Shown here piece after piece: positions 1 through 39,672 of a stretch of 39,672 nt of DNA. The DNA comes from Nitrospira sp. Its GTDB lineage: Bacteria; Nitrospirota; Nitrospiria; SBBL01; JAADHI01. The stretch's first letter is position 1; every line of letters starts with the position of its first letter. Where the stretch lies: contig JALUVJ010000108.1 of NCBI GenBank assembly GCA_027020665.1, forward strand, positions 1 to 39,672. The letters run 5' to 3'. The notes below the pieces were generated by a model. It saw only the letters and a list, made by a program, of their open reading frames with translations, was not told the origin of the DNA and ran no database searches. A program made the position numbers and the translations under genes.

Positions 1-1
1 G

Positions 2-118
2 GAATTGATCAAACGGCCAACCTACGAATCACAGGAGCAGACCCGTTTGGATACCGCGACGACGGACGATCACATGTTGCAAGAAGGTGATGAGCGCATC
101 TTGATCGGCGGAGAATAA
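2..118 (+). CDS. Cupredoxin/carboxypeptidase-regulatory-like protein, 3' end only (first of three tandem paralogues)
   Basis: The window opens inside a reading frame that runs 38 codons to a TAA. It is absent from the ORF track because it has no start here. The translated tail (RPTYESQ, then LQEGDERILIGGE) aligns almost residue for residue with the C-terminus of the next gene (RPLYESQ, then LHEGDDRLIISD), so this is the end of a third paralogue. Only the extreme C-terminal tail is visible; the copper-site and regulatory-like domains seen in its neighbours would lie left of the window. It is followed by about 135 bp of AT-rich spacer before the next copy. Paralogy is directly seen; function is inherited by inference from the two full copies. 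Confidence 0.85.
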   Translation, partial: ELIKRPTYESQEQTRLDTATTDDHMLQEGDERILIGGE

Positions 119-186
119 TCTTTTCCTTAATCTCTATTAAAAAATTGCACACTTGTTATGGAGAAGAAGGCGCTCATGTTCTGATT

Positions 187-216
187 TTGACTTATTGATT
201 CAATTTTTATTATCTT
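187..216 (+). promoter_or_regulatory. Putative sigma70-type promoter for the second paralogue
   Basis: TTGACT and TATCTT separated by 18 bp lie in the AT-rich spacer, about 40 bp before the start codon. The -35 match is good (5/6) and the -10 only fair (4/6). The rest of the 119-253 spacer shows no other recognisable feature. Confidence 0.4.
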
Positions 217-253
217 ATTCCCGGTTAAACGGATTTTAGAGGAAGGAGTGGCT

Positions 254-1189
254 GTGAAAAACTTACTTTTCTGTGCGCTTGTATGGTTTTTTTTTCTAGA
301 AGCCGTTTTGACACATTCCAAGGTATTTGCTTACGAAGAAGTTGATGTCAGTCGGGGGGGAAGCATAAAAGGACGGATTACCTTAAAAGGAGACATCCCT
401 CCCCCAAGAGTTTTTTCTCTTTCGTTGTACCCCTTTGGCTCTTTTTGCAAAAAAATTTCGAATGGCAACGGCCATGTTTTTCTCAAAGACTTCATTGTAA
501 ATGACAATGGCGGTCTTTGGGATGTCGTCATTGCCGTGCAAGGCGTAAAAAAAGGGAAACCTTTTCCCCTGATTCAAAGAGAATTTGTTGCCACCGATTG
601 TATGTTTCATCCTGCTGATGTTGCCGCGCGTGAGCAGTTCTTTATGGATGATATGGGTCGCATGCACCATGAACATCCTAATGTGGCTATTTTGGAAAAC
701 CACCAGCCTATCTCTGTTGTCAATCACGATCCGATTATCCACAATATTCAGGTTTTTCAAAACGAACGCGGTAATATCATCTTGAATGCTCCGCTTCCGG
801 TTTCGACCCGGCCCCGGGGCGGGGCCTTGCACTTTGACCGAGGTAAACGCATTTCTCAGATGATCTGCGGCCTGCATGAATTTATGCAAAGTTGGGGGTT
901 TGTGGTCGATAATCCCTACTATGCGATGACGGAAAAGGATGGCACATACGTTATTGATCATTTGCTGCCGGGAGAATATATCGTGAGTATTTGGCACCCG
1001 CATTACCCGGTATATGAGCAGAAAATCTCAATGACGGAAAATGGCGTGATCGTGCTTGATTTTGAATTTGACGCAAGTCTTGTCAGGCGGCCGCTCTATG
1101 AATCACAGAGACGTTTTCGAATGGACCCTGCTACTCCGGATGAACACCGGCTCCATGAAGGGGATGATCGACTCATTATTTCAGATTAA
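254..1189 (+). CDS. Exported cupredoxin-like protein with carboxypeptidase-regulatory-like domain (second paralogue)
   Basis: Predicted periplasmic or surface copper-site protein of 311 residues. A hydrophobic signal peptide ends near KVFA, before YEEVD. An N-terminal beta-rich domain (GGSIKGRITLKG, one Cys) comes first. A cupredoxin-like segment follows, with a His in NHDPIIHNI and the cluster CGLHEFM, i.e. Cys-x2-His-x2-Met, the type 1 copper spacing known from amicyanin. A carboxypeptidase-regulatory-like beta-sandwich (DGTYVIDHLLPGEYIVSIWHPH) and a short acidic tail close the protein. I place the start at GTG 254 rather than the track's GTG 248, because AAGGAG at 243-248 would overlap the latter but sits 5 nt before the former. 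It carries a His-rich insert (HHEHPN) in the middle that the third copy lacks. Electron transfer or copper handling is an inference; no redox partner gene is visible in the window. Confidence 0.8.
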   Translation: MKNLLFCALVWFFFLEAVLTHSKVFAYEEVDVSRGGSIKGRITLKGDIPPPRVFSLSLYPFGSFCKKISNGNGHVFLKDFIVNDNGGLWDVVIAVQGVKKGKPFPLIQREFVATDCMFHPADVAAREQFFMDDMGRMHHEHPNVAILENHQPISVVNHDPIIHNIQVFQNERGNIILNAPLPVSTRPRGGALHFDRGKRISQMICGLHEFMQSWGFVVDNPYYAMTEKDGTYVIDHLLPGEYIVSIWHPHYPVYEQKISMTENGVIVLDFEFDASLVRRPLYESQRRFRMDPATPDEHRLHEGDDRLIISD

Positions 1190-1208
1190 TTGAGGAATGC
1201 GCTATAAT
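1180..1208 (+). promoter_or_regulatory. Putative promoter for the third paralogue
   Basis: A perfect TATAAT (1203-1208) lies 17 bp downstream of TTCAGA (4/6 match to TTGACA) at the very end of the preceding gene. The -10 sits inside a weak inverted repeat (TTGAGG...CCTCAA, about 1189-1214). A roughly 130-bp leader would precede the GTG start. It holds a repeated TGAATCGA word but no riboswitch that I recognise. Confidence 0.4.
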
Positions 1209-1341
1209 GCCTCAACAAAAGGTTTAGGGCGTGTCGATATTCAACTGGGAGGGGAATTTTTGTTCTGAATCGATACGACTGGGATTACCAAAATGAATCG
1301 AATGTATATTTTGATTCTTATGGAACCATAGGAGAAAGACC

Positions 1342-2313
1342 GTGATTAGGAAGATAATTATTTCATTATTGTTATCGTTTGTTTTTTTAAGTGGAAATTC
1401 ACCGCAGGTTTGGGCTTACGAAGAAGCCCCTGTTCGAAACGGAGGCACTTTAAAAGGCAGGGTTTTTTTGAACGGCCCTCCGCCGCCCGACCGGGTCTAT
1501 CACTTGATTTTTTCTCCGAACATTGATTTTTGCCGGGGGATTTCGGACGGAGACGGTAATCGCATTTTGAAGGAGTTTCAAACTTCCGCTGATGGAGGCT
1601 TCCAAGATGTCATTATTGCGATTGTGGGGGTTAAAAAAGGAAAGCCCTTTGGCATGACGCCGATTGTATGGCTGGAAGATTGTGAGATGCGGCCCTTTGT
1701 CACGCCGGTCAGAAATAACCATCCGGTGACCATCGCAAGTAACGATCCGGTGGTACACGGTATTCAGGGCTATTCGCTTGATAGTGACTACACCTTTCAG
1801 ATGTTTAACAAGCCTGTCCCGCCAAAATCCAATGTGCAGGAAAAGATTCACTTTCGTGAAGGGCACTATATTTTCAGAACGCAATGCGGTATGCATGACT
1901 ATATGCAGTCATGGGGCCTGGCGGTTGGAAATCCCTACTTCGCGGTTACAGATCAAAACGGCAGTTTTGAAATTGTAAATGTGCCTCCCGGAGAATATGA
2001 TGTGATCGCGTGGCATCCGCATATGGATGTTCAGGCACAACCTGTGACGATTCAAGCGAATGGGGAAGTCGAAATGGGGTTTATTTTTGAGTCGAAGGAG
2101 GTTCGGATTCCCTTACACGATCTTCAAACCAGCTACCGTTTGCAGACGTGGTTGCAAGAAGACCACTTGGTCCCGCCAACTGTGAAGACTCAGACGCACA
2201 ATGCGCCGGACGCATTGCTTAAACCTTTTACTTGGCAGGAAAGAAGCAAACATTATCGGGTGAATTCACGACCAGATACAGATGCGGATGTGGATTCACC
2301 CGAATCGAAGTAA
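1342..2313 (+). CDS. Exported cupredoxin-like protein with carboxypeptidase-regulatory-like domain (third paralogue)
   Basis: A 323-residue paralogue of the preceding gene. The signal peptide (1-25) ends at QVWA before YEEAP. The N-terminal beta domain spans about 30-105 with a conserved Cys in DFCRG. The cupredoxin-like part spans about 105-195, with candidate copper ligands His139 (SNDPVVHG), Cys182, His185 and Met188 (CGMHDYM). A carboxypeptidase-regulatory-like domain (DQNGSFEIVNVPPGEYDVIAWHPH region) spans about 196-250. The GTG start has GGAG 7 nt upstream. Unlike the other two copies it lacks the EGD(D/E)R tail and has an unrelated 70-residue C-terminus that ends in an acidic DTDADVDSPESK segment. 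That tail overlaps the converging PBP gene on the other strand. Ligand residues are seen; copper binding and an electron-transfer role are inferred. Confidence 0.8.
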   Translation: MIRKIIISLLLSFVFLSGNSPQVWAYEEAPVRNGGTLKGRVFLNGPPPPDRVYHLIFSPNIDFCRGISDGDGNRILKEFQTSADGGFQDVIIAIVGVKKGKPFGMTPIVWLEDCEMRPFVTPVRNNHPVTIASNDPVVHGIQGYSLDSDYTFQMFNKPVPPKSNVQEKIHFREGHYIFRTQCGMHDYMQSWGLAVGNPYFAVTDQNGSFEIVNVPPGEYDVIAWHPHMDVQAQPVTIQANGEVEMGFIFESKEVRIPLHDLQTSYRLQTWLQEDHLVPPTVKTQTHNAPDALLKPFTWQERSKHYRVNSRPDTDADVDSPESK

Positions 2314-24906: not shown

Positions 24907-26940
24907 TTATTGAAAGCGGTTGGATTGCACGTTTGTCGTGGTCCCGTCGTTCTGAGTCCAGACCGCGATGGCGGTGCCGTTTGCGTCCAAAGTGATTTGT
25001 GGAAATCCTGCATTGCCGAGATCGTCTGTCTCAAGTTTTTCTGCCGTTTGCCAGTTTCCGGCTTGTGTGTAGCGGCTGGCCCAGACATTGTCAAAGCTGT
25101 CTCCACTGTTTAGCTGAGCCCAGACCGCGATGGCATTGCCATTCGGGTCAAAAGTGACTTGAGGAAACCCCACGTTCGATACTGTTCCGGTCTCCAAGGG
25201 GGCCGGTGCGTCCCAAAGCGCCGTGCTGATATTGAAGCGGCTTGAGAAAATATGGAAGACTGAACCGTCAGACTGGCGCCAGAGGGCAAAAGCATTGCCT
25301 TGGGAGTCGACGGCGATTTCAGGCGTGAAGGCCTGGGTCGTTTCCGTATCGATGACAAGAGGCGGGGCGGCCCAGCCCGTTCCGGGCACGAAACGGTTAC
25401 TCATAACGTTGATTGCGCTTCCATCATCCTGAAGCCAAACCGCGATGGCTCGGCCGCTTTCATCCATTGCGATTTTGGGAATGCCGGCATCTCCGGCGTT
25501 GTCGAATTCGATGGCTTCCGCTGTTCCCCAGGAACTGCCGTCGAATCTGTTTGCAAAGATGCTAAATTGTGTGCCGTCAGACTGTTCCCAGACCGCAATG
25601 CCATTTCCATTCCGATCAACGGCAATTTGTGGCGCCTGTGCATCGTTATTTTCCGTTTCAATCGGGGTTGCCGTCGTGTCCCAAGTGCCGAGTTCTGCAT
25701 TAAAGCGCTTGCTCATGATGTTAAAAAATGATCCGTCGAATTGCCGCCAAACGGCGATGACATTTCCGTTTCCATCTACAGCGATTTGAGGGGAGTCCGC
25801 AGACCCTGTGTTGTCTGTTTCGATGCGATACGCCGCTTCCCATAAGCCTGTCGCCGCATTGAATCGGTTGGCCCAAATGTCATTTTGTGTTCCGTCACTC
25901 TGTTGCCAGACGGCGATGGCGTTTCCGTCCGAATCAAGCGCGACTTGAGGAAATCGTGCATGACCGGCATCGACGGATTCGATTAATTGGGGAGTGCCCC
26001 AACCGACTCCTTTGACATAACGGTTGGCCCAGATATTATCCGGGCCGGATGTGCCGATGTTCGTCTGAGACCAAACCGCAAGGGCATTTCCGTTTGCATT
26101 CACGGCGATTTGAGGCGAAGCGGCGTTGTTCAGTGGATCGTTTACGCTATTTAGATCTACTCCCTCGGCATTACCCCAAGTGCCGTCAGCCGTTGTAAAG
26201 GTCCAAGTATGCGGCGCGACGAGTGTTTCCCCCAAGATTCCGGTGATGCTTGTATTGAGTGTCGCGGTATAATTTGCGGCGAGTGCGAGGGGCTGTGTGG
26301 CTGTAAAACGTGCTTCAAAAACGGGTGCGGCTTCTGTATAGCCGACTGAGCCTGCGACAGAACCTGTCATCCCGCTTAAGGTAAAGTTAAGATCGGTGAA
26401 GGAGGCCGCATCCATCGGTTGGCTGAATGTTGCGGACACGCTGCTGTTTAGGGCGACGGCTGTCGCATTTTCAGCCGGTTGGGTTGTAAGTACGGCGGGG
26501 GGGATATTGACGGTAAGTTCGGGCGGAAAGACGATGTTTGTATTTTGACCCGCGATGATTTCGGCTTCCGATGCGGCGGTGGCGATGAGGGCGCCATCTA
26601 AAAAATATTGGATGATAAAGCTGTGGGTGCCCGGGCTCAGCGCGCCGGTTGTGGCAGTGACGCGATCGTTTTCCAGATCAACGGTCATGTCGATGGGGGT
26701 GCCGCCATTCACAATGAGTTGCGCGGTGATATTTTTTCCGCTTTGATGTTTTTTTAGTGCCGAAGGCAAGGGCAGGGTAAAACCGCCATCGGGTGTTTGT
26801 GTGGCGATGCGGGCTTGTTTCGGGCTTTTTCCGCATTGCGTCAGGAAAAGAGACAAGATCAGGAGGAGACAGAAGGCGGCGTCGGGTTTTCCGGAGCGTG
26901 TGTCTTGAATGCCTGAATGTATGTTAGGGCGTGCCTTCAC
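24907..26940 (-). CDS. Lipoprotein with SbsA-type Ig-like domain and eight propeller-like repeats
   Basis: Unnamed exported protein of 677 residues. A lipoprotein-like signal has a hydrophobic core LLLILSLFLTQC with Cys36 (the -1 Gln is unusual for a lipobox). After a beta-rich region comes an SbsA/Big_5-type Ig-like domain (PAENATAVALNSSVSATFSQPMD to HTWTFTTADG). The rest is eight tandem repeats of about 50-58 residues with consensus PQIAVDxxGNAIAVWxQxDG then a (N/S)RF-type strand, ending at the stop. The track's first 51 residues are Arg-rich sequence shadowing the upstream gene. I choose GTG 26940, with AAGGA 4 nt upstream, 32 nt after the preceding stop. A beta-propeller surface protein binding carbohydrate or protein is a reasonable guess; no enzymatic motif is visible. 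Confidence 0.8.
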   Translation of the reverse strand: MKARPNIHSGIQDTRSGKPDAAFCLLLILSLFLTQCGKSPKQARIATQTPDGGFTLPLPSALKKHQSGKNITAQLIVNGGTPIDMTVDLENDRVTATTGALSPGTHSFIIQYFLDGALIATAASEAEIIAGQNTNIVFPPELTVNIPPAVLTTQPAENATAVALNSSVSATFSQPMDAASFTDLNFTLSGMTGSVAGSVGYTEAAPVFEARFTATQPLALAANYTATLNTSITGILGETLVAPHTWTFTTADGTWGNAEGVDLNSVNDPLNNAASPQIAVNANGNALAVWSQTNIGTSGPDNIWANRYVKGVGWGTPQLIESVDAGHARFPQVALDSDGNAIAVWQQSDGTQNDIWANRFNAATGLWEAAYRIETDNTGSADSPQIAVDGNGNVIAVWRQFDGSFFNIMSKRFNAELGTWDTTATPIETENNDAQAPQIAVDRNGNGIAVWEQSDGTQFSIFANRFDGSSWGTAEAIEFDNAGDAGIPKIAMDESGRAIAVWLQDDGSAINVMSNRFVPGTGWAAPPLVIDTETTQAFTPEIAVDSQGNAFALWRQSDGSVFHIFSSRFNISTALWDAPAPLETGTVSNVGFPQVTFDPNGNAIAVWAQLNSGDSFDNVWASRYTQAGNWQTAEKLETDDLGNAGFPQITLDANGTAIAVWTQNDGTTTNVQSNRFQ
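24910..26121 (-). repeat. Eight tandem coding repeats (propeller-like)
   Basis: In-frame repeats of roughly 150-175 bp, each encoding PQ(I/V)(A/T)xDxxGxAxA(V/L)WxQ. The protein motif is strongly kept while spacer lengths and wobble bases differ, so they are old duplications rather than a recent expansion. Eight copies would suit a seven- or eight-bladed propeller. Confidence 0.8.
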
Positions 26941-26972
26941 TTTGTCCTTGTCTTTATAAATGCAGGGATGAT

Positions 26973-27662
26973 TTAGGGAATGCCTGCCGATACGGTTCCG
27001 GTGCCTGTGTTTGGCCGGGCCGGGCTGCTGCTTCCGCTGCCGCCTGCGGCGATGCCGCCAGCGATTACACCGACGGCAATGGTCCAAACCCACCAGCGTT
27101 TGTACCAGGGTTTTTCTTTTAGATTCGTTTCGCTTTCCGTGTCCGATGCCGTGCTGAGCCGAAAGCCTTTTTTTCCCGGGGGCAGGATGGCGGTGTTGAT
27201 ATCGGAATTTCGATCTATTTGCCCTGCGGGTGCCTTAAGTTCGACAATGAGCGGTGTGTTCGGCATGCCTTGTGTGGCGGTGTTGCCTGCTGTGTCGGAG
27301 GCTTGAATGTAATATTCCATGCCGGGCCGCCGGACGAAGCGTCGGGGAATAATGGCCAAGTATGTTGTATTGCCGATCCATTCCATCTTAAGGGTGTTGT
27401 ACTCTTTTCCGCCTGCGGTTCTATAAAACAGCAGGACCTTGTTTACGGTGCGATTGTCCTTCACCCTTGCCTGAACGATAATAGGGTCATCCAGCTTCAG
27501 TGCCGCTTTAAAGGGATCGTGTTGTATCGCGGGCGGAAAACGATCCGCCGTGTTCGGATTTTGGGCCAAAAGCGGAGTCAAGGGCGGGAAAAAGAAGGTG
27601 TGGATTGAGATCAAGAGAAATGCAATCGCCTGTTTGTTCTGTTTTTTTATGTTGATGTTCAT
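26973..27662 (-). CDS. Exported Ig-like-fold protein with C-terminal membrane segment (function unknown)
   Basis: A 229-residue protein that I do not recognise. A signal peptide or N-terminal TM (AIAFLLISIHTFFFPPLTPLLA) leads to a beta-sandwich-like domain, DPIIVQARVKDNRTVNKVLLFYR through MEYYIQASDTAGNTAT, resembling bacterial Ig/Fn3-type modules. Downstream come a charged linker and a predicted membrane helix WWVWTIAVGVIAGGIAAGG flanked by KPWYKR, ending in a Gly/Ser/Thr-rich tail. The start ATG lacks a clear Shine-Dalgarno. It sits 67 bp after the kinase gene and 32 bp before the lipoprotein gene on the same strand, so the three are probably co-transcribed; a shared envelope role is inferred. 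Confidence 0.75.
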   Translation of the reverse strand: MNINIKKQNKQAIAFLLISIHTFFFPPLTPLLAQNPNTADRFPPAIQHDPFKAALKLDDPIIVQARVKDNRTVNKVLLFYRTAGGKEYNTLKMEWIGNTTYLAIIPRRFVRRPGMEYYIQASDTAGNTATQGMPNTPLIVELKAPAGQIDRNSDINTAILPPGKKGFRLSTASDTESETNLKEKPWYKRWWVWTIAVGVIAGGIAAGGSGSSSPARPNTGTGTVSAGIP

Positions 27663-27729
27663 ATGAATAGTTTAATTTAATCCTGATATTTTGCAAATTT
27701 TAAATAAATATTACGTGTTTGTTTTGGAT

Positions 27730-29772
27730 CTACCAGATAACTTTGTCCCATTTTCCCCTGTTTTTGGGAATGATTAATTTGACTGTTTTCCAGTGATCGG
27801 GGGGGCGGGTTTTTTTGTTTTTGTGTGTGCGAAGTTCAGTGATGGAGATGATTGCTTCCGCCTGTTCCGCTTCAATGGAGAGGTCGGTGACCGAAACGCT
27901 GACGCTTTTGTAATTCTTAAAAATTTGTTTTAAGAAGGTGCTGCGGTTTTTCGACATGGTGCTCATGTTTTGAAGGGTTTTCAGATCTTTTTTTTCATAA
28001 GCGGCTGTGAGACGACTGAGGATGGCGCCCAGAGAGTCGATTTCGTTGAGCGGTAAGACCGGGTCCTTTTTTTGAGCCGCGAATTGTTTCCGAGGCGGCG
28101 GGTTCTTTTTTTTCGTCGGGGGGTTAAGCAGGGGTTTTCTTTTGTTCTGCGCTTTTTCTAAGGCCGCTTGGTTTTTTGGGGTTTTTGTTTTTTCTTTACT
28201 GAGTTTAATCAATTCGCTACGCAAAAGGGCTTCCTGCCTTTTTCTTTCTTCACGGGCTTTCCTGCGTTCTTTTTTGAGCCGCGCGAGTGCTTGTGAGGCC
28301 TTTTCCCGGGCGCGTTTTTCTTTTTCCATTCGGGATTGTTCTGCTTGTATGATTTTGCCGTGTGCGGTTTCAATGGCCCGGACATAGCCGTTATGCGACT
28401 GGCTAAAAAGGAAGTGGGCGTTTTTGAGTGTATCTCTTGCGGCGTCATAGGATTGTTTTTTGATGAGTTTCTCGGCTTCTCTCAGAAGGGCCGCGGCCCT
28501 TGTTTCCAAGTCTGCGGCTTTGTTGTAGCTTTCTTTGGCCCAGGGGCGGATTTCATCCGGAGCGGATGTTTTATGTGTGTGGGCCAGCTTTTCCTGTACG
28601 GCTTGAATTGCCGCTTTCAGTTGTGCGATTTGAAGCTGTGCGGCGGGTTTTGGTGAATTGTTTTTAAAAAAGGGCGCGGCAATTCCCGCAAAGACCAGTG
28701 TGACGATGATGAGGGCTATACTTCGCTTGGGCCATTTTTTTGTTGATTCCGATCTCTGAATTGCAGGGGTCTGCTCTTTTTTGGGTGTAACGACTGTCGC
28801 TTGGGCCTCAGATGTGCCGGTTTTTTCCCGATTTGTTTTAAAAAACGGCGGCACGGGCGGGTTGCCGCGGATTGCATGCTGTGGTGCAGCGGGTATTTTT
28901 CGGGCGGGTTGGGGAGAGAAGCTTTTTCCCTGATTTGTTTCCACTTCGGTTTTGAGTTCCTGTTTGCTTGTTTTGATTTGTTGCATGAGGGCGGAGGTGT
29001 CGGCGATGCGGTCGTCCTTGTTTTTTTTAAGCAGGTTTCTCACGAGCTTTTGCAGGGAGGGCGCGACGGGTTTATCGAAAATGAGGTCGAATTCCGCCTC
29101 ATCGTAGGCCAGCTTTTTTAGCACATCCCCCCCGGAGATTCCCGTGTAATAGGTTTGGCCCGTCAGCATTTCATACATGACCATGCCGAGGGCGTAGAGA
29201 TCGCTTCTGCCGTCGAGGGTTTCACCGCGTGCTTGTTCTAAAGACATGTATTCGGGTGTGCCGATGATGTGGTTGTCTGCGGTGAGCGAAATTTCGTCCG
29301 TCGTCGCGGCGATGCCGAAGTCGGCGATTTTGGCGACGCCGTTTTTGTTAATGATGATGTTCGCGGGTTTGATGTCGCGGTGAATGACGTTCTTATCGTG
29401 TGCATAAGCCAACGCCTTGGCCACTTGATAGGCGATGGAGAGTACAGTGCGTTGCGGCAGTTTTTTCTTTTTTAAAAGAATCTGCCGCAGGTTTTGTCCT
29501 TTAAAATATTCCATGACGATGAAATGGGTGCCCTGTTCTTCCTGCACGTCGAAGACCCGGATGATGTTTTTGTGGTCGAGACGGGCCATCGCCCGGGCTT
29601 CCCGTTGAAAGCGGTCTAAAAAGGCGCTGTCTTTTGTAAATTGGGGATGCAGGACTTTGATGGCAACAGTGCGATTGAGTGCGGTGTGCAGGGCCTCATA
29701 GATTACACCCATCCCGCCCCGCCCCACTTCGCGCTTTATTTCGTATTTCCCGGATAAAATTTTACCGATCAT
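27730..29772 (-). CDS. Membrane-anchored Ser/Thr protein kinase with extracytoplasmic NTF2-like domain
   Basis: A 680-residue eukaryotic-type kinase. The N-terminal kinase domain (about 8-265) has the glycine loop VGRGGMGVIYEA, Lys39 in VAIKVL, HRDIKPANI (131-139), ADFGIA and GTPEYMSLEQARGE; all catalytic residues are present, so it should be active. A Pro/Thr linker leads to one TM (about 351-370). Outside is a highly charged Lys/Arg/Glu/Ala coiled coil (about 375-560) and a terminal domain (SLGAILSRLTAAYEKKDLKTLQNM to the end) that looks like an NTF2/SnoaL-type cone fold. No PASTA repeats are seen. It lies 130 bp after serB and heads the envelope gene set. Substrates are unknown; the adjacent dcw proteins are only a possibility. 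Confidence 0.93.
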   Translation of the reverse strand: MIGKILSGKYEIKREVGRGGMGVIYEALHTALNRTVAIKVLHPQFTKDSAFLDRFQREARAMARLDHKNIIRVFDVQEEQGTHFIVMEYFKGQNLRQILLKKKKLPQRTVLSIAYQVAKALAYAHDKNVIHRDIKPANIIINKNGVAKIADFGIAATTDEISLTADNHIIGTPEYMSLEQARGETLDGRSDLYALGMVMYEMLTGQTYYTGISGGDVLKKLAYDEAEFDLIFDKPVAPSLQKLVRNLLKKNKDDRIADTSALMQQIKTSKQELKTEVETNQGKSFSPQPARKIPAAPQHAIRGNPPVPPFFKTNREKTGTSEAQATVVTPKKEQTPAIQRSESTKKWPKRSIALIIVTLVFAGIAAPFFKNNSPKPAAQLQIAQLKAAIQAVQEKLAHTHKTSAPDEIRPWAKESYNKAADLETRAAALLREAEKLIKKQSYDAARDTLKNAHFLFSQSHNGYVRAIETAHGKIIQAEQSRMEKEKRAREKASQALARLKKERRKAREERKRQEALLRSELIKLSKEKTKTPKNQAALEKAQNKRKPLLNPPTKKKNPPPRKQFAAQKKDPVLPLNEIDSLGAILSRLTAAYEKKDLKTLQNMSTMSKNRSTFLKQIFKNYKSVSVSVTDLSIEAEQAEAIISITELRTHKNKKTRPPDHWKTVKLIIPKNRGKWDKVIW

Positions 29773-38850: not shown

Positions 38851-39672
38851 ATGATGAACCGAAAAGTGATTCTGGTTTTTTCCGGTGTCATGGTTTTTTG
38901 CACGGCACTGATTGGTATCGCTTTGGTTGTCGAATCCGTTAAATCTAAAAGAATTCAAGCCTCGACCAAAGGGCTTGAAATGCGTGAGCGGGACGTGGCT
39001 GTTGTCAAAAAAGTGGATTACAGCCAGTTTGAAACCATTAAGGGGGGAGATGGGCGTGAGATGGTGCTTATTCCCGCAGGTTCGTTCACGATGGGGGGAG
39101 GAGCGGACGGGGATCTAGATGAGCAGCCGCAGCGGGTGATTTACCTGGATGCTTTTTACATGGACAAATATGAAGTCACGAATGCTGATTACGCCCGTTT
39201 TACAAATATGCTGAAACGTCCTGGACCGATGATTCCTGTATTTGAGGACGATGAAAATTTACTCAAAGGGGACGATCAGCCCGTAGTCGGAGTGGCTTGG
39301 GTTGATGCGGTGGCCTATTGCCGTTGGGCCGGTAATCGTCTGCCGACCGAAGCGGAATGGGAAAAAGCAGCGCGAGGTGAAGACGCGGTGAAATGGCCTT
39401 GGGGTGATAGCTTTCACGCATCACATGTCAATGGGCACGGTTCTCAGGACGGGTATAAATATTCCGCCCCCGTGGGTAGTTTTGAATCAGGCCGGAGTCC
39501 TTACGGTCTTTATGACATGGCGGGCAATGTTTCAGAGTGGGTTGCGGATTGGTACGACCAATTTTATTATAAGGATGCGCCCTTTAAAAACCCGACCGGA
39601 CCGGAAGATCCCGGTATTATAAAAGTGCTTTCTTATCGCGGCGGTTCTTACAACAGCACGGCACATGATTTA
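38851..39672 (+). CDS. Membrane-anchored SUMF1/formylglycine-generating-enzyme family protein, 5' part
   Basis: An open frame of 274 codons to the window edge, missed by the ORF track because it lacks a stop. AGAGG lies 9 nt before ATG 38851. An N-terminal TM or uncleaved signal anchor (VILVFSGVMVFCTALIGIALVV) is followed by about 35 residues of linker and then a FGE-sulfatase domain: REMVLIPAGSFTMGG, YMDKYEVTNADYARF, PVVGVAWVDAVAYCRWAG, RLPTEAEWEKAARG, WPWGD, LYDMAGNVSEWVADWYD and YRGGSY. The domain end, where true sulfatase-activating enzymes carry two copper-binding Cys, lies outside the window, so whether this copy is an oxygenase or only a carbohydrate/lectin-like relative cannot be told. 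No sulfatase gene is in view. Confidence 0.9.
   Translation, partial: MMNRKVILVFSGVMVFCTALIGIALVVESVKSKRIQASTKGLEMRERDVAVVKKVDYSQFETIKGGDGREMVLIPAGSFTMGGGADGDLDEQPQRVIYLDAFYMDKYEVTNADYARFTNMLKRPGPMIPVFEDDENLLKGDDQPVVGVAWVDAVAYCRWAGNRLPTEAEWEKAARGEDAVKWPWGDSFHASHVNGHGSQDGYKYSAPVGSFESGRSPYGLYDMAGNVSEWVADWYDQFYYKDAPFKNPTGPEDPGIIKVLSYRGGSYNSTAHDL

Follow-up and report, generated by a model that had tools for sequence, protein, structure and literature searches.

Gene organization at the left end of the window

The window, i.e., the whole stretch of 39,672 nucleotides that was analyzed, constitutes one contig (C108) of a Nitrospira sp. genome that is 2.68 Mb in size and 92% complete. Judging from its relatives, the genome falls into the class Nitrospiria, on the side of the Manganitrophaceae. 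Its left end harbors three related genes in tandem, here termed copies A, B and C, of which A is represented by its tail and B and C are present in full. A sequence-only reading of this DNA had claimed such an array of at least three, with a signal peptide in each full copy, a histidine motif and a C-x2-H-x2-M motif, and all of these elements were found at the following positions:

2-118, + strand: 3' end of copy A, 38 residues plus stop codon (translation; the remainder lies beyond the contig end)
248-1189, + strand: copy B, exported cupredoxin and carboxypeptidase-regulatory-like protein, 313 aa
248-331, + strand: copy B signal peptide, predicted cleavage before YEE (by eye; Tyr29 invariant; helix 2-23 in the model)
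560-913, + strand: copy B cupredoxin domain with putative ligands His165, Cys207, His210 and Met213 (invariant columns)
917-1072, + strand: copy B carboxypeptidase-regulatory-like segment (PF13620, 22.1 bits, below the cut-off of 32.3)
1342-2313, + strand: copy C, exported cupredoxin and carboxypeptidase-regulatory-like protein, 323 aa
1342-1416, + strand: copy C signal peptide, predicted cleavage before YEE (by eye; Tyr26 almost invariant; model with a helix at 2-17)
1654-1932, + strand: copy C cupredoxin domain (invariant columns; aligned with the ligands of 5fc9)
1756-1758, 1885-1887, 1894-1896 and 1903-1905, + strand: copy C putative ligands His139, Cys182, His185 and Met188, respectively
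1936-2103, + strand: copy C carboxypeptidase-regulatory-like segment (PF13620, 30.7 bits, cut-off 32.3; PF14686, 29.4 bits, cut-off 24.4)

Copies B and C are 35% identical in an alignment and share the signal peptide cleavage context A/YEE (the slash marks the cleavage point). Both contain the N/H-D-P-x-x-H motif, which ends at His165 in B and His139 in C, followed by C-x2-H-x2-M (Cys207/His210/Met213 in B and Cys182/His185/Met188 in C). Because a Shine-Dalgarno-like sequence, GGAAGGAG, is located at about 240-247, the in-frame GTG at 254 is the likelier start of copy B. To the right of the copies, from 2253 on the opposite strand, ordinary envelope and cell-division genes were recognized by eye, including those for a penicillin-binding protein, DivIVA, YggT, ProC, FtsZ, FtsA and the rest of the dcw cluster. 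Inspection by eye also revealed, beside the dcw cluster (24907-29772), a Ser/Thr-kinase-like gene and an exported protein in which 'AVW-Q-DGT' motifs recur, as well as, at 38851-39672, an exported protein that resembles formylglycine-generating enzymes (SUMF1-like) and is cut by the window end.

A repeat at the contig end and a second locus in the same genome

Position 1 of the window coincides with a contig end that falls within a repeat. In the same genome, contig C45 encodes a multicopper oxidase (MCO) of 1663 residues with a full copy A right after it, and window positions 1-126 match the end of this copy A with 99.2% identity (one mismatch). Within the genome, the first 38 bases of the window occur only on C45 and C108. 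C45 runs on into contig C130, which opens with the same copy-A tail and then carries a CopD-like gene. Since this continuation proceeds via the shared tail, C45 and C130 together represent a second MCO locus (L009:3023-9047 on C45 and L193 on C130), which in relatives is followed by a hemerythrin gene; in G004, a member of the same genus, the second locus consists of MCO, A, CopD and hemerythrin. A further 5' fragment of an MCO gene lies at the end of contig C181 of the window's genome. Joining C45 and the window into one locus was ruled out, as the window fits the MCO-A-B-C locus of relatives: this arrangement is located beside the same dcw-side genes in G001, G003 and G004, and G002 contains A-B-C at the same place before its contig ends. 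As the repeat broke the assembly, an MCO is expected to the left of copy A, and by synteny its gene should lie immediately left of the window. The supposition that an oxidoreductase is encoded to the left thus gains support, with a giant MCO as the candidate, both from these relatives and from C45.

A predicted type 1 copper site in an unusual two-domain protein

The sequence-only reading had proposed a type 1 copper ligand set and staked it on two analyses, namely ligand conservation among homologues and structure prediction of both full copies. In homologues that were not selected by motif, all four ligands are intact (77 of 77), comprising 27 of 27 that were fetched solely for lying beside an MCO and 50 of 50 that were fetched by whole-protein similarity. 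The ligand pattern is therefore not a product of chance, and the refuting outcome named beforehand, a lack of ligand conservation in homologues, did not occur. A wider set of 184 sequences, which is biased because some of its members were retrieved with a degenerate form of the ligand motif, retains His, Cys and His throughout and the methionine in 182, the two departures affecting Met only. When 35 diverse members were aligned, Asp135, Cys64 and Cys114 (copy C numbering) proved invariant in addition to the four ligands.

AlphaFold models of copies B and C reached mean pLDDT values of 88.7 and 85.4, respectively, and showed a cupredoxin fold in each case. With both models, Foldseek matched the purple cupredoxin 5fc9 (Nmar_1307) of Nitrosopumilus and amicyanin (1id2 and others) with a probability of 1.00, the E-value of copy C versus 5fc9 being 1e-5. 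In the model of copy C, the strands stop at Cys182 and restart after Met188. A profile of the domain alone gave one plausible match in the PDB, again 5fc9 (E 0.008), and this alignment places His139, Cys182 and His185 onto the His and C-x2-H ligands of that protein. A single-sequence search of the PDB yielded no copper protein. Taken together, invariant residues, predicted fold and alignment to a solved cupredoxin bear out the proposed ligand set, and the three tandem exported proteins very probably carry a blue-copper (type 1) electron-transfer center. The likeness to amicyanin that had been pointed out holds for the C-x2-H-x2-M ligand spacing; a strict amicyanin label was discarded, given that the amicyanin family model TIGR02657 matches neither B nor C. 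The copies differ from both 5fc9 and amicyanin in their length of ~320 aa, a second beta-sandwich domain, extra cysteines and an overall identity of 8-18%.

In searches of Pfam and NCBIfam, neither copy B nor copy C matched PF00127, PF13473 or TIGR02657 above the cut-off, and PF13473 was matched by one of 17 domain sequences (E 0.011). These libraries recognize the terminal beta-sandwich of the copies and not their cupredoxin domain, so automatic annotation will miss the copper proteins. Even for the sandwich the PF13620 scores vary around the gathering cut-off of 32.3 bits, with 39.6 for the full copy A on C45, 30.7 for C and 22.1 for B. The PF13620 match begins at about position 28-30 of the 82 profile positions, and a G-x3-G-x-V-x-L-x-G-x2-P segment precedes the cupredoxin domain; we infer that the cupredoxin domain may be inserted into the regulatory-like sandwich.

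The giant multicopper oxidase and its linkage to the predicted copper proteins

The MCO consists of ~1660 residues and contains the four-copper motifs HxxHxH, HCHxxxHxxxxM and two HxH, whose residues (451/454/456, 528-530/534/539, 847/849 and 987/989) do not vary among 68 full-length sequences. Among solved structures, its closest relative is MnxG of Bacillus (9bxa; E 8e-85), likewise a long multi-cupredoxin MCO, which is aligned over most of its length and has 1227 residues in comparison to about 1660 here. Against the NCBIfam equivalog model of MnxG (NF041487), the MCO scores 114.8 bits, far below the cut-off of 3100. The partners of MnxG are MnxE and MnxF, whereas the candidate partners of the MCO described here are putative type 1 copper proteins.

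This enzyme is present in 146 of 147 sampled genomes of the class Nitrospiria. In a phylum-wide sample, the other classes returned just four weak matches, so that the MCO is essentially absent from them. It was also detected in 10 of the 11 genomes behind Nitrospinota-type loci, and these Nitrospinota MCOs are 52-68% identical to that of the window's genome. Candidatus Manganitrophus GAC4 (G017), which belongs to the same order and another family, encodes two MCOs with 72-73% identity, with members of the cupredoxin family downstream of each. At 16 of 20 MCO loci from various genera of the class, a family member lies on the same strand within 3 kb downstream; about five of the 20 were already known to have a copy when they were picked, and excluding them leaves 11 of 15. 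The chance rate for such a downstream neighbor is about 0.9% per locus, assuming a generous 20 copies per genome. At the four remaining loci (L090, L097, L098 and L102), no copy was detected within the fetched flank.

Other genes also occur in this neighborhood. A CopD-like membrane protein is encoded before or after the MCO at six loci (L043, L046, L048, L053, L190 and L191), and a small metal-binding protein follows one Nitrospira locus (L146). No CopD gene is located next to the window's own locus. At two loci of the Nitrospinota, the gene after a family member encodes a protein that combines three cytochrome c domains with one for haem b (EB_dh). In Nitrospinota stretches L139:9968-18989 and L151:1935-12443, the MCO is clustered within about 10 kb with members of the cupredoxin family and with cytochrome c proteins, of which one has the EB_dh haem b domain. 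In G013, a Rieske protein and a cytochrome b-cytochrome c fusion (L191:183-1999) are encoded ~3.5 kb upstream of an MCO/copper-protein pair (L191:5456-11369). A search of the window's own genome for the MtrB/PioB porin was negative, which is weak as a test.

Duplication and distribution of the cupredoxin family

The idea that the family diversified by duplication is borne out by a tree of 83 members. Here, C groups with last-position genes and A and B group with first-position genes of other families, while A splits from B inside the window's family. According to this grouping, the two-gene array is old and the three-gene array is younger. The order MCO-A-B-C recurs in the genus and family of the window, and an MCO with one or two copies recurs across the class Nitrospiria. 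Duplicated MCO loci each retain their own copy (L190 and L191, both fetched through the MCO). Copies that lie away from any MCO were also found (L010 and L011), so the association of the cupredoxin family is not exclusively with the MCO. The one at L011:7505-8491 (contig C68) is a distant relative whose plastocyanin score (PF00127, 20.7 bits) falls just short of the cut-off of 21.2, with no MCO in the fetched stretch.

Relation to previously described systems

A periplasmic MCO and two cupredoxin-like proteins in the NXR gene cluster were described for Nitrospina gracilis and Candidatus Nitrospira defluvii (PMC3578206). That MCO is likewise large, resembles the manganese oxidase of Bacillus SG-1 and is clustered with electron carriers. 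For Nitrospina and Nitrospira, that study already covers the MCO and its resemblance to a manganese oxidase, the location in the NXR cluster together with cupredoxin-like proteins, and the idea of a function against reactive oxygen species (ROS) (PMC3578206). The arrangement reported here differs in that two or three two-domain copper proteins follow right after the MCO, beside cell-division genes and not NXR. In our comparison, the cytochrome c/EB_dh protein of the Nitrospinota loci resembles the 'alternative NxrC' of the same study. Additionally, two novel MCOs were reported in all Candidatus Manganitrophaceae (PMC9040806), and these are probably members of the same enzyme family as the MCO of the window's genome, judging from the two MCOs of Candidatus Manganitrophus GAC4; the main text of that paper makes no mention of copper proteins beside them. 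A literature search that for the most part did not reach subscription papers found no paper in which the two-domain copper proteins, or their arrangement in tandem with the MCO, are described. The class spanned by the giant MCO includes major nitrite oxidizers and comammox Nitrospira as well as the lineage of the Mn(II) lithotroph, and the copper proteins, which standard family libraries miss, are testable candidates for its redox partners.

Proposed function and alternative explanations

The exported, putative type 1 copper proteins, encoded by the distal genes of the MCO cluster, are most likely dedicated redox partners of the MCO, a reading to which we assign a probability of roughly 0.6. 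In this model, which takes the observed genes, ligands, linkage and MCO motifs and the predicted fold as its basis, the copies would reside in the periplasm or at the surface, each having a single mononuclear type 1 copper site, and would be built from a cupredoxin domain and a carboxypeptidase-regulatory-like beta-sandwich. The first gene of the cluster, beyond the contig end, would encode the ~1660-residue four-copper MCO, a distant relative of MnxG. The cupredoxins may pass single electrons between the type 1 copper of the MCO and carriers such as c-type cytochromes, and the second domain could provide docking or stability; the direction of transfer and the substrate of the MCO are likewise a matter of prediction. 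Since nearly all members of a class of mostly nitrifiers have the cluster, it is not specific to metal oxidation.

Among the alternatives, an oxidative-stress module can be considered possible, yet on balance unlikely. It extends an existing proposal (PMC3578206) to the tandem copper proteins: in organisms that lack superoxide dismutase and catalase, the MCO would generate Mn(III) or oxidize another metal and thereby remove superoxide, with the cupredoxins as electron sink or source. The retention of an MCO similar to the Bacillus SG-1 enzyme in Nitrospina and Nitrospira without these two enzymes (PMC3578206) is consistent with this explanation, as is the near-universal presence of the MCO in the class whatever the energy substrate and its essential absence from the other classes of the phylum. 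However, a function against ROS does not in itself account for as many as two or three type 1 copper proteins dedicated to the MCO.

Alternatively, the proteins could hold or deliver copper for loading the four-copper MCO and not carry electrons. The CopD-like proteins adjoining the MCO at six loci and the small metal-binding protein at L146 speak for copper supply, and they fit it as well as they fit electron transfer; the window's own locus lacks an adjoining CopD gene. Moreover, a type 1 site with buried Cys, two His and Met ligands is suited to electron transfer and atypical of chaperones. A supply function is regarded as distinctly unlikely.

A more far-reaching version of the redox-partner model, in which a metal, e.g. 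Mn(II), donates electrons to the MCO and these reach respiration via the cupredoxins, would constitute a copper-only, energy-conserving periplasmic route. We regard this as improbable; if true, such a route would conserve energy as known Mn-oxidizing MCOs cannot. Equally improbable, if not slightly more so, is that the module serves as a conduit for manganese lithotrophy, with electrons from Mn(II) passing through MCO and cupredoxins into the respiratory chain. The relationship to MnxG and the Rieske/cytochrome b pair before one MCO locus of G013 agree with a conduit, and so do the two novel MCOs of all Candidatus Manganitrophaceae, where MCO-based Mn(II) lithotrophy would need a periplasmic carrier (PMC9040806), a role for which the copies are candidates. 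By contrast, the module is near-universal in nitrifying Nitrospiria and also found in Nitrospinota, the MCO remains below the MnxG equivalog cut-off, and Cyc2 with a porin-cytochrome complex is the preferred explanation of Mn(II) oxidation in the same study (PMC9040806). The presence of the module throughout the class weighs against restricting its role to Mn(II) lithotrophy, and manganese lithotrophy as the sole role is not favored. Finally, that the copper proteins act alone on a small molecule such as NO is hardly credible: Nmar_1307 (5fc9), the closest solved structure by fold and profile, oxidizes NO according to work cited in PMC6790972, and an NO oxidoreductase yet to be identified would benefit comammox Nitrospira (PMC6478695), but the similarity to 5fc9 is weak (E 0.008) and the open binding site of Nmar_1307, as given in a title cited in PMC6790972, differs from the near-invariant axial Met found here.

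Besides the copper proteins, a conserved protein of about 170-200 aa, exported and with no significant match to a Pfam family, is encoded near the MCO cluster on C45 (L009:1476-2075), and its homologues lie near the MCO at L047, L049, L050, L052, L053, L054, L057, L058, L059 and L146.
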